Part shown: one piece after another, positions 3,656 through 7,935 of the stretch | How positions within the stretch are numbered: position 1 is the first letter of the stretch | How the letters are laid out: every line of letters starts with the position of its first letter | Assembly: GCA_012103315.1 (NCBI GenBank) | Contig: WLWZ01000005.1 | Coordinates: 124,001-188,000 of the forward strand | DNA length: 64,000 bases | From: Alphaproteobacteria bacterium | Lineage (GTDB): Bacteria; Pseudomonadota; Alphaproteobacteria; MPNO01; UBA2964 | Direction: 5' to 3' | Program-made: the position numbers and the translations under genes | Notes under the pieces: model-generated | Seen by the model: only the letters and a program-made list of their open reading frames with translations | What the model was told of the DNA's origin: nothing | Database searches by the model: none

Positions 3656-4592
3656 GTGACCAGAGGGCTTCTCATCGCCCTCGTTGGGGGATTGGCAAGT
3701 GCTGCCTTCTTTCTTGCCGTCAGAACCGGTGCGCCCGGAGCAATTGCCTTGACCTATTTAGCGTCGGTACCGGTCTTAGCAGTCGGTTTATCCCAAGGGC
3801 TTCTAAATTCAGCCATCGCGGCGCTAATAGCCGCAATTGCGATTATGCTCGGTATTCATGCAACGGCGTCAGGTATTTACATAGCAATTGCTGCCATCCC
3901 TGCCCTTATCGTCATCCGCCAATCCTTATTCTCACGACCTGGTTCCACCCCCGGGAAACTGGAATGGTACCCCATCGGATTGACCCTCGGCTGTCTAACA
4001 GCTTATGGCCTCATCGTTCTTGCAATTATCTCACTTTATTTTCTTGGCGACGAAGGCGGCCTCACCGGCAAATCGGAACGCTTGCTTGGGACGGTATTTT
4101 CACGAGTCACTGCGGCGAATCCGCAAATTACTATTCCGTTCGAAGGAATTGCACGCTTTCTCCCAGGAATGTTGCTGTCAGTGTGGCTTCTAATTTCAAT
4201 TGTCAACGCGACTTTGGCGCAGAATGTTTTAGCCCGTCTTGGCCATGCAATTAGACCAATACCCAGTTACAGTAGCATTGAGCTACCGAATTGGATGAGC
4301 CTCGCGTTAGCAATGGCAATTTTAATGTCTTTTTTTTTCGGGAGTAATCGGGGATTTTGGTAGGAATGCGTCACCATTGCTATCAACACCCTTTTTTCTT
4401 TTGGGCCTAGCGGTTATACACACGCTTTCGCGACGCGTTTCCGCTCGCGGACCGGTCCTTTTCGGCGCTTATTTCCTCTTGGTCGTAGTTGGGTGGTTAT
4501 CGGCGTTAGTTGTGTTATTAGGTGTTTTGGAACAATGGGTATCGTTACGGCAGCGCTTTGCGCCGCCGGACAGAGATCAGGAGAATGAGTGA
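3656..4592 (+). pseudogene. DUF2232 membrane protein, split by a frameshift at a T9 tract
   Basis: Multi-pass membrane protein of unknown function found between rpsR and rplI in alphaproteobacteria. Translation from GTG at 3656 gives 235 residues with about seven hydrophobic segments, then leaves the family frame at a run of nine T (4330-4338) and stops at 4363. The next frame continues at once with family-like sequence: removing one T gives MSFFSGVIGDFGRNASPLLS, followed by LGLAVIHTLSRRV and a last membrane helix, ending at 4592. The repaired protein would be about 311 residues. The reconstruction is seen directly; whether it is an assembly error, a mutation or slippage on U9 cannot be told from sequence. 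The second part ends in TGATG, coupling it to rplI. Confidence 0.8.
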
Positions 4593-5218
4593 TGGATGTA
4601 ATCCTTCTTGAACGGATTGAGAAACTTGGCCAAATGGGCGACGTCGTAGCCGTACGCCCCGGGTTTGCAAGGAATTATCTCCTTCCCCAAAAAAAGGCTT
4701 TAAGAGCAACCAAGGAAAATAAGGACCTATTCGAGACCCAGCGGGCACAACTCGAAGCATCAAACCTTGAGCTTAAGAACGAAGCTGATGCCGTTTCGAA
4801 GAAACTCGACGGCCTCTCGATTACAATCGTTCGTCAAGCGAGCGACAACGACCAACTTTATGGATCCGTTACAGTTCGCAGCATTGCTCAATCAATCACC
4901 GATGCCGGGTTTACTGTCGATAGTAAGCAAGTCCAAATGGCACGCCCAATCAAAACCGTCGGTATGCATGAGGTTATTGTCAGACTGCACCCTGAAGTAA
5001 GCGTCTCAGTGACCGCAAACGTTGCCCGCTCTGAAGAAGAAGCAATCGCCCAGGTCGAAGGTCGCTCTCTCGATGAAGACGATCAAATCGAAGCAGCACA
5101 GCAAGAAGATGAAACTGTTTCTGACGATACTGCAACAGAAGTAAGCGTTGAAGACACCACCGATGAAGACACTTCTGGTGAAGATGCCGCGGAAACGGAA
5201 GAGAAAGCCGCAGAATAA
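4592..5218 (+). CDS. rplI: 50S ribosomal protein L9
   Basis: Large-subunit protein, 208 residues from ATG 4592. The start overlaps the stop of the preceding frame (TGATG) and follows a CAGGAGA ribosome site; a GTG one codon earlier is possible. The N-terminal domain reads [19 protein letters not shown] with the L9 signature GFARNYLLP. The C-terminal L9 domain runs to about residue 150 and is followed by a tail of about 55 residues very rich in E and D. Last gene of the ribosomal operon. Confidence 0.96.
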
Positions 5219-5293
5219 CGGCGGGAAATTTTTCACCGCTACGCAACTTATGTATCGGACATTTAGCTAAAGCTCTGCTTTAATAACCGCCTT

Positions 5294-7084
5294 ATGGCTA
5301 TGCGACGCAGTATTAAGGAAATGTGGCTCGGAGCCACACTTTCAACGCTTCTCCATGTTGGCCCGATAGTTTTGCTTCTAGTTGGGCTACCAGTCCTGAC
5401 GCTCGCTCTGAATCAGGATAAGAAAGAACCTGAAACAGTCGATACAAAGTCTCAGGCAGGTGCCCGCAAGGCAAAAGCCGTTGCCAAGACAAAGTCGGAA
5501 AAGATAGAGGTCACCCGCGATACTGCAAAAGGCCAAGAAATCGACGAAAAGGTTGCCGACGATACCGGTCAAAGCGCACCAAGCATTGACATCCAAATCA
5601 TCTCAGCATCAAAAGTACCAACAGCCGTACAAAAGGTTATCGAAAAACAGACAGCTGCAATAAACAAAAATAAACAGCAGCCAGCGCAAAAGAAACCGAC
5701 ACCTGCTCCGACGAAGACAGAAACCAAACCAGAACCGTCAAAGACCCAAGAAACCACGGCTACCGAAGCAAACCACAAGAAGAAGACACCACCTAAGAAA
5801 CAAACAGCAGAGCGCAAGCCGTCACATCCAGTACCGGCTATCACAGAACCGACACCACCCAAAAGCAATACTCAAAAATCGGAGACCATCAAGCTCGCTC
5901 AAGCACCAAAGAAACAGTCGGACAACTCTGTGAAAAAGAATTCCATTATTGAAAAACCGCGCACCAGACGCGGCGGTGGTGGAGCCGATGGATCCGATAG
6001 TAGCGGTGCTGGTGGCGGCAAAGTCGGCGAATCAGGGAGTAGCGAAGGTAAAGAATTCGGAGCTCTATTGACGCCAAGCCGCCCCATTCGATCAGCGAAG
6101 GCTCTTATCGACGTAATCGAAGAACAGAACCCGCAATTACTATCTGAAGTCAGTAGAACGCCCGCAGGAAATCAGACGGCGGAGAGAGTCGAGCGCCAAA
6201 AAAGAAATTTTAAGCGGATCGAGGTGGCGGCTAAATCCGGACACGCAAATGCCCAGTACAACATAGCCAAACTGCTGTTACGAGGCCAAGGGGCTGAGCA
6301 AGACTTTGATACTGCGCAAGAGTGGTTACAAAAATCTGCTGACCGTGGCTATGCCAAAGCGCATGTATTGCTTGGGTACCTTGCCTTGAAACCGGGGAGA
6401 AACCGGGATCTTGCACAAGCGGACGCCTGGTTTTGGGCGGCTGCCCAACAAGGAAATAGATTTGCCGCAGCCGCTCGCAAACCACTCGAAAGAATTATGC
6501 GGGCTTCCGAAATTTTAAAATCGCGCAGACTGAGAAGGGAACTGAAAGGTTTATTTTCTTTGCTACCCATTTCCTTTGGCGGTGGCAGTGAAGGAGATGA
6601 AAGAACGAAATCTAATGACAAATTGCGCAGTTCAGCATCGCGTGGTGAAGTTAAAGACCTCTTGGATGCGCTGTTACAAGGCGCTGACGTCGACGGTCAG
6701 GATATCGACGGGAAGACCGCGATGATCAACGCCGCCTGGCGCGGTCGTCGAGAAATTATCGAGATATTGCTCGATCATGGAACTGATATCGAGATCGCAG
6801 ATCAAAAGAAAAGGACACCGCTCATGTGGGGCGCGATCAACGGACAATCACCAGTGGTTACAACCCTGATCGAAGCCGGGGCAGAACTTGACATCGCCGA
6901 TGACGAGAATGTAACCGCGTTAATGAGAGCCGCCTGGAACGGTCACACGAAAATCGTCAACCAGCTGCTCGCTGCAGGAGCCAATCCAAACCGACGTGAC
7001 GATAATGGTGTATCGGCCCTTGACCATGCAAAACGTGAAGGACACAAAGAAATTGTCAAACGTCTAAAACTTTCAATCAAGTGA
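5294..7084 (+). CDS. TonB/TolA-like membrane anchor fused to Sel1-like and ankyrin repeats
   Basis: 596 residues with a composite build not recognised as a named family. Residues 11-40 form one membrane helix containing Ser17-x3-His21, the spacing known as the SHLS-type motif in TonB and in TolA helix 1. Residues 41-220 are a Lys/Pro/Thr-rich linker like a TonB or TolA spacer, and 225-250 are Gly/Ser-rich. Around 308-400 two to three Sel1/TPR-like repeats appear (SGHANAQYNIAKLLLRGQG and relatives). Around 440-590 there are four ankyrin repeats (DIDGKTAMINAAWRGRREI, TPLMWGAINGQSPVV, and so on). The repeats would be periplasmic if the helix has TonB topology (N-in). Function is unknown; a single-pass scaffold linked to the proton-motive-force motors is an inference. 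It sits alone between rplI and nadK on the same strand. Confidence 0.8.
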   Translation: MAMRRSIKEMWLGATLSTLLHVGPIVLLLVGLPVLTLALNQDKKEPETVDTKSQAGARKAKAVAKTKSEKIEVTRDTAKGQEIDEKVADDTGQSAPSIDIQIISASKVPTAVQKVIEKQTAAINKNKQQPAQKKPTPAPTKTETKPEPSKTQETTATEANHKKKTPPKKQTAERKPSHPVPAITEPTPPKSNTQKSETIKLAQAPKKQSDNSVKKNSIIEKPRTRRGGGGADGSDSSGAGGGKVGESGSSEGKEFGALLTPSRPIRSAKALIDVIEEQNPQLLSEVSRTPAGNQTAERVERQKRNFKRIEVAAKSGHANAQYNIAKLLLRGQGAEQDFDTAQEWLQKSADRGYAKAHVLLGYLALKPGRNRDLAQADAWFWAAAQQGNRFAAAARKPLERIMRASEILKSRRLRRELKGLFSLLPISFGGGSEGDERTKSNDKLRSSASRGEVKDLLDALLQGADVDGQDIDGKTAMINAAWRGRREIIEILLDHGTDIEIADQKKRTPLMWGAINGQSPVVTTLIEAGAELDIADDENVTALMRAAWNGHTKIVNQLLAAGANPNRRDDNGVSALDHAKREGHKEIVKRLKLSIK

Positions 7085-7167
7085 CATCACGACTAGGCTT
7101 CGTCCTCAAACGAAAATTTTTAGGCTCCTGTACATAAAGTCGTTTTCCTGCAAAATTCAAATCCATC

Positions 7168-7935
7168 ATGACCGTCGACCGTATCGCCTTCATTAGTTCA
7201 AGCACACCTGCAGCGCGAAGCGCTTGCCAGCGCCTTCGTAAACGCTATGGGAATGTCTCCCTCAAGAAGGCCGAGATCGCTGTCGTCCTAGGTGGTGACG
7301 GAACAATGCTGCAAACAATGCATCAGTGTTTTGAACTGAACATCCCGATCTACGGCATGAACAGGGGTACAGTCGGTTTTCTTATGAATGAGTTCAAGGA
7401 AGCTAACCTTCTCAAGCGCCTTGAAAGAGCGAGGCCAATTGAACTCCACCCGCTCCTCATGAAAGTGAAAACGGTGACCGGCGTCAAAAAGGACGCCTAT
7501 TGTATTAATGAGGTCGCCCTTTTGCGGCAGACACGCCAGGCCGCAAACCTTCGCGTCAGTATCGACGACAAAGTACGAATGAAAGAGCTGATTTGCGATG
7601 GTGCGGTCGTCGCCACGCCAGCGGGCAGCACTGCCTACAATCTTTCGGCGCACGGACCGATAATCCCACTTGGGGCCGAGTTGCTGGCGCTTACACCAAT
7701 AAGTGCCTTTCGACCGCGCCGGTGGCGTGGCGCCTTGCTTCGCGACAGTGCAAAAATAAAATTGGAAATTCAGGAGCCTAAGAAAAGGCCCGTCAGTGCC
7801 GTTGCCGACTACACTGAAGTCCGGAATGTAAAATCCGTAACCATTCTTCAACAAAAAGACATTTCATTAAAACTACTGTTCGACGAAGAGCACGATCTCG
7901 AAGAACGAATCTTGAATGAGCAATTCATTCCGTAA
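7168..7935 (+). CDS. nadK: NAD kinase
   Basis: Phosphorylates NAD to NADP with ATP or polyphosphate. 255 residues, in the normal range for the short alphaproteobacterial form. Shows GGDGT (residues 42-46), the NEVALLR segment, and the Gly-rich loop with TPAGSTAYNLSAHGPI. The start ATG 7168 is the only sensible one. It stands 83 bp after the Sel1/ankyrin gene on the same strand and converges with the thiamine operon. Confidence 0.96.
   Translation: MTVDRIAFISSSTPAARSACQRLRKRYGNVSLKKAEIAVVLGGDGTMLQTMHQCFELNIPIYGMNRGTVGFLMNEFKEANLLKRLERARPIELHPLLMKVKTVTGVKKDAYCINEVALLRQTRQAANLRVSIDDKVRMKELICDGAVVATPAGSTAYNLSAHGPIIPLGAELLALTPISAFRPRRWRGALLRDSAKIKLEIQEPKKRPVSAVADYTEVRNVKSVTILQQKDISLKLLFDEEHDLEERILNEQFIP

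Follow-up and report, generated by a model that had tools for sequence, protein, structure and literature searches.

The locus examined here lies in a 64,000-nucleotide stretch of alphaproteobacterial DNA (the window), in which an intact open reading frame of 596 aa (5294-7084, + strand) joins an N-terminal hydrophobic helix to Sel1-like and ankyrin repeats. A sequence-only reading had proposed that Ser17-x3-His21 in this single helix, followed by a Lys/Pro linker, copies the architecture coupling TonB and TolA to ExbBD/TolQR, so that the locus raises the question of whether its product is a client of an envelope motor and, if so, of which one. The relevant features are:

5294..7084, + strand: whole gene, TolA-type helix, linker, Sel1-like and ankyrin repeats (ORF call, Pfam)
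5327..5407, + strand: N-terminal transmembrane helix, residues ~12-38, N-in/C-out (sequence, positive-inside charge, HMM match to TolA helices)
5342..5356, + strand: Ser17-x3-His21, putative TolQ/ExbB-docking motif (homologue conservation)
5384..5392, + strand: Gly31-Leu32-Pro33, His +10 to +12, in TolA register (comparison with TolA helices)
5408..6184, + strand: Lys/Pro/Thr/Glu-rich linker, residues 39-297 (composition)
5585..5605, + strand: D-box/motor-box-like strand IDIQIIS, residues 98-104 (pattern search; motif definition PMC10907165)
6188..6538, + strand: Sel1-like helical repeats, residues ~299-415 (Pfam Sel1 318-353, alignment, AlphaFold2 model)
6635..7069, + strand: ankyrin repeats, residues ~448-592 (Pfam; Foldseek ankyrin/DARPin matches)
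7168..7935, + strand: nadK, conserved downstream neighbour, outside the protein (follows the gene in 17/23 family loci)

Both motif residues (Ser17, codon 5342-5344; His21, codon 5354-5356) are inside one hydrophobic helix, and the MA- start is common to the homologues. The linker, which the sequence-only reading had described as Lys/Pro, is 14% Lys, 10% Thr, 9% Pro and 8% Glu, as would be expected of the extended Pro/Lys-rich linker of TolA/TonB-type transducers. At the C-terminus Pfam returns Ank_2 (E 2.5e-27, residues 448-579; about four ankyrin repeats) and one Sel1 repeat (residues 318-353, E 7e-7, 30.0 bits, slightly below the 30.7 cut-off). An AlphaFold2 model of the Sel1-ankyrin head, built from three sequences only, has consecutive helix hairpins over both regions (pLDDT 72.5, moderate; pTM 0.42), and ankyrin/DARPin structures are among the Foldseek matches listed for it. 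Pfam and the model thus give Sel1 and ankyrin repeats, and neither TolA domain III nor TonB_C, bearing out the proposal that protein-interaction repeats replace the C-terminal receptor domain.

Whole-genome protein searches turned up strong relatives at the level of genus, family and order, and relatives at E<=1e-40 in 21/385 evenly sampled genomes of the class, a total that a head-profile search brought up to 24 genomes from 15 genera. In a sample of 398 genomes of the phylum, a profile search at E<=1e-50 gave matches in the window genome alone, and a plasmid search returned generic ankyrin matches and nothing more. No cultured homologue can be named, because a scan of named genomes gave matches confined to same-genus MAGs. 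Outside the genus, heads share 33-45% identity with the query; the linkers share little sequence and vary greatly in length, with only ~85 residues separating His from the repeats in one member (G042). Two divergent members with S-x3-H, at L049 (G138) and L170:4670-6511 (G240), have extra hydrophobic helices directly after it, ahead of the linker. In three MAGs (L033, L034, L169) the gene is broken by stops or frameshifts, probably through assembly errors and possibly through decay.

The sequence-only reading had named beforehand the lack of the Ser/His pair in homologues as evidence against itself. In a His-anchored alignment of helices from alphaproteobacterial homologues (~15 genera) the pair is kept: all 26 have His, and 24 of the 26 have Ser at -4. 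Among the 21 members that align without gaps, His is found in 21 and Ser in 20, and the pair is not a product of chance, because it is near-invariant while the next best helix column (Pro+12) reaches just 15/21. The two exceptions (G222, G314) have A-x3-H and come from a single genus, in which the third member (G108) does have Ser; S-x3-H is also present in three held-out members found later and outside the counts (G404, G212a, G240b). As far as sequence can tell, the protein has the S-x3-H single helix of the TolA/TonB-type transducer class. The full SHLS motif is S-x3-H-x6-L-x3-S (PMC12215075); here S, H and L are present and the final Ser is Leu, as it likewise is in alphaproteobacterial TolA helices with G-L-P at +10 to +12. 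The comparison set for TolA consisted of proteins adjoining TolR in the same genomes, and family and TolA helices have a common register of R/K-9, G/A-8, S-4, H0, G+10, L+11 and P+12. The two helices of the window genome read ISGILHVLVIVVAYFGLP (TolA) and LSTLLHVGPIVLLLVGLP (Sel1-ankyrin protein).

Profile searches retrieve this kinship in both directions. An HMM of 18 TolA helices, run against 7,413 ORFs (the window, ~390 kb of the window genome and all retrieved loci), placed TolA on top, followed by 11 family matches with modest individual E-values (4e-4 to 0.2), and the first unrelated ORF appeared at E 0.39. Conversely, an HMM of the family helices retrieved most TolA, with E between 3e-6 and 2e-2, ahead of the first unrelated ORF at 0.81. 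A joint helix profile run on the whole window genome matched only TolA (2.4e-15) and the Sel1-ankyrin gene (1.4e-11), both of which were members of its training set, and the next match was at 0.38.

The sequence-only reading had noted the helix and linker of a motor-coupling architecture and had overlooked a second element, the D-box-like strand at residues 98-104. This segment (core IDIQII, 98-103) fits the D-box/motor-box pattern downstream of the helix, a strand credited with force coupling or motor activation (PMC10907165, PMC12204202) and whose equivalent is found in 93% of validated TolA sequences (PMC12204202). A slightly relaxed pattern is present in 10/17 family representatives versus ~1.1 expected from shuffled linkers (P ~3e-9, indicative because the pattern was picked after viewing the sequences) and in 17/17 TolA tested, at +25/26; 7/17 members are without the strict pattern. 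As a sequence pattern, the protein has the putative D-box/motor-box strand of the transducer class.

If the helix docks on a motor, the window genome leaves little choice of partner. It has one TolQ-TolR-TolA operon (contig C6) including a canonical TolA, a single ExbD-family protein, which is the TolR of that operon, and no TonB_C domain detected in the Sel1-ankyrin protein or elsewhere. TolQR is therefore the only candidate motor, and the Sel1-ankyrin protein would be an additional client, because the canonical TolA is present. Of the two motors named in the proposal, ExbBD/TolQR, the available one is TolQR and not ExbBD. ExbD- and ExbB-family (TolQR-type) proteins occur in all 26 family genomes; 20 have a single ExbD-family protein and six have extra ExbD-family genes, and thus most of them offer TolQR as the sole candidate partner. 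The window genome's TolQ keeps Ser43 and Trp47, which align with E. coli S28/W32, the residues that contact TolA Ser18/His22 in a cryo-EM structure (PMC12215075). Three further MotA_ExbB-family matches were rejected as a private motor: one on C15 is MotA-type and beside flagellar genes, one on C18 was judged MotA from length and score only, and one at C6:72777 is barely at the cut-off.

A cytosolic location of the repeats had been named as counting against a motor client, and the topology indicators point to the periplasm. The heads of 23 members contain no cysteine in 6,992 residues, against 25 in 4,009 for the NadK proteins encoded at these loci, and the mean net charge flanking the helix is +1.6 before and -1.6 after it. 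In G212 and G305, and with less clarity in G252, there are paralogues that share this head but have an apparent signal peptide in place of the S-x3-H helix, with cleavage sites judged by eye. Taken together, the Cys-free heads, positive-inside flanks and signal-peptide paralogues make the Sel1-ankyrin repeats most likely periplasmic. In G212 the two forms stand in tandem (L167:3528-6965), in the order moaA, signal-peptide (free periplasmic) copy, S-x3-H anchored copy, nadK.

What can be read from the sequence is a TolA-type helix, a motor-box-like strand, a head predicted to be periplasmic and TolQR as the only candidate motor. We consider it likely that the TolQR proton motor has this bitopic inner-membrane protein, with its Sel1-ankyrin head, as a second client, and the Tol motor probably has such a second client in many Alphaproteobacteria. 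Docking on TolQR is predicted from helix and strand with good sequence support: the N-terminal helix would dock on TolQ TM1 via Ser17/His21 in a TolA-like manner, and the periplasmic dimer of TolR would recruit beta-strand 98-104 in the way that ExbD recruits the D-box. The periplasmic head, carried by the linker, may grip a periplasmic or outer-membrane partner, and energisation would place force on the linker, with the partner presumably pulled, relocated or released. Weighing against the second-client reading are the lack of linkage to tolQR or exbBD, A-x3-H in G222 and G314, the 7/17 members short of the strict D-box pattern, the great variation among linkers and the modest E-values from TolA to the family. 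Conservation of a docking helix is not proof of applied force, and we give about an even chance to the fuller model, in which TolQR is a multi-client motor that pulls both TolA and the Sel1-ankyrin transducer for PMF-driven work on a second envelope partner in many Alphaproteobacteria.

The main rival is a passive hitch-hiker or regulator that docks its helix on TolQ and its strand on TolR and is not pulled, serving to localise the Sel1-ankyrin scaffold to Tol motors or to compete with TolA for docking sites. The same helix, HMM and D-box evidence applies to it, adaptor roles are typical of both Sel1 and ankyrin repeats, and the very variable linkers and the free signal-peptide paralogue suggest that the head can function independently of the motor. 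Retention of the D-box-like strand beyond chance nevertheless counts against it, because a pure anchor would not need such a strand, and we regard passive docking as unlikely. The sequence-only reading had itself allowed for only a look-alike helix; the protein would then have a plain N-terminal anchor unconnected with any motor, and its Ser/His pair would be incidental or serve another role. The missing exbBD/tolQR synteny and the A-x3-H of G222 and G314 would fit such an anchor, yet a near-invariant Ser/His pair in an otherwise drifting helix, the TolA-identical register, reciprocal HMM retrieval and D-box enrichment make it quite improbable.

An ExbBD-driven TonB variant would use the same helix logic and could draw on the extra ExbD-family genes of six family genomes. 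The single ExbD-family protein in the window genome (its TolR) and in 19 others, the window genome's lack of TonB_C and the GLP signature of TolA in the helix speak against this, and we hold it to be very improbable. Ankyrin proteins are mostly cytosolic, and a reversed topology with cytosolic repeats would agree with that general rule; it is opposed by the cysteine, charge and paralogue data and is the least probable of these alternatives.

Compared with TolA of the TolQRA-Pal system, the protein shares the N-in helix, in which S-x3-H and G-L-P keep the TolA register, the motor-box-like strand, a long and presumably periplasmic linker and the availability of the same TolQR. It differs from TolA in that Sel1-ankyrin repeats replace domain III, the TolB/Pal-binding part, in that its gene has a rplI/moaA - gene - nadK context outside the tol-pal operon, and in being an addition beside canonical TolA rather than a replacement. 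With TonB/HasB it has in common the S-x3-H helix, D-box pattern and Lys/Pro-rich linker, whereas the window genome is without a TonB_C domain and without a second ExbD. The vWA force transducers, a class found through synteny with motor genes (PMC12204202), likewise combine an SHLS helix, disordered linker and motor box with a head unrelated to the TolA/TonB C-terminal domains. In contrast to these, the head here is Sel1-ankyrin, with ankyrin folds only from Pfam and among the Foldseek matches listed and no vWA fold in the C-terminus, and the gene is not beside motor genes. According to the excerpted portions of PMC7327166, ExoR and RgsF of Sinorhizobium are periplasmic Sel1-repeat proteins, RgsF belonging to a protein set studied together with TolQ, and they resemble the present head as Sel1-like periplasmic adaptors in Alphaproteobacteria; in those same portions RgsF is exported by a signal peptide, and no ankyrin repeats or motor helix are reported for either.

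The main text of PMC12204202 does not mention Sel1 or ankyrin, and searches of open-licence papers on ankyrin/Sel1 with Tol/Ton gave no account of a Sel1-ankyrin transducer. The class appears undescribed, and the published vWA-headed class appears to be its closest precedent. If the second-client reading is true, the Tol motor does not serve TolA-Pal exclusively, a protein-interaction scaffold can take the place of a force transducer's receptor domain, and an undiscovered force-dependent process is predicted in alphaproteobacterial envelopes. It would extend the 2025 vWA report of transducers with unrelated heads, here without the aid of motor-gene synteny.

The exbB/D neighbours that the sequence-only reading had suggested seeking beside S-x3-H homologues were not found: none of the 23 family loci has a tol or exb gene linked to the Sel1-ankyrin gene, nadK is directly or closely downstream in 17 of them, and moaA or rplI is upstream in most. 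In the window (4589-7935) the gene is between rplI and nadK, and the nadK adjacency is kept across families with no obvious functional link. In eight genomes the space separating the Sel1-ankyrin gene from nadK holds an opposite-strand gene for an apparently secreted protein of ~168 aa with QDRHxGYYYP (L167:7007-7510(-), L168:4285-4824(+), L060, L061, L063, L066, L067, L068). This protein has no Pfam match, is absent from the window genome and is present in 14/28 genomes tested.
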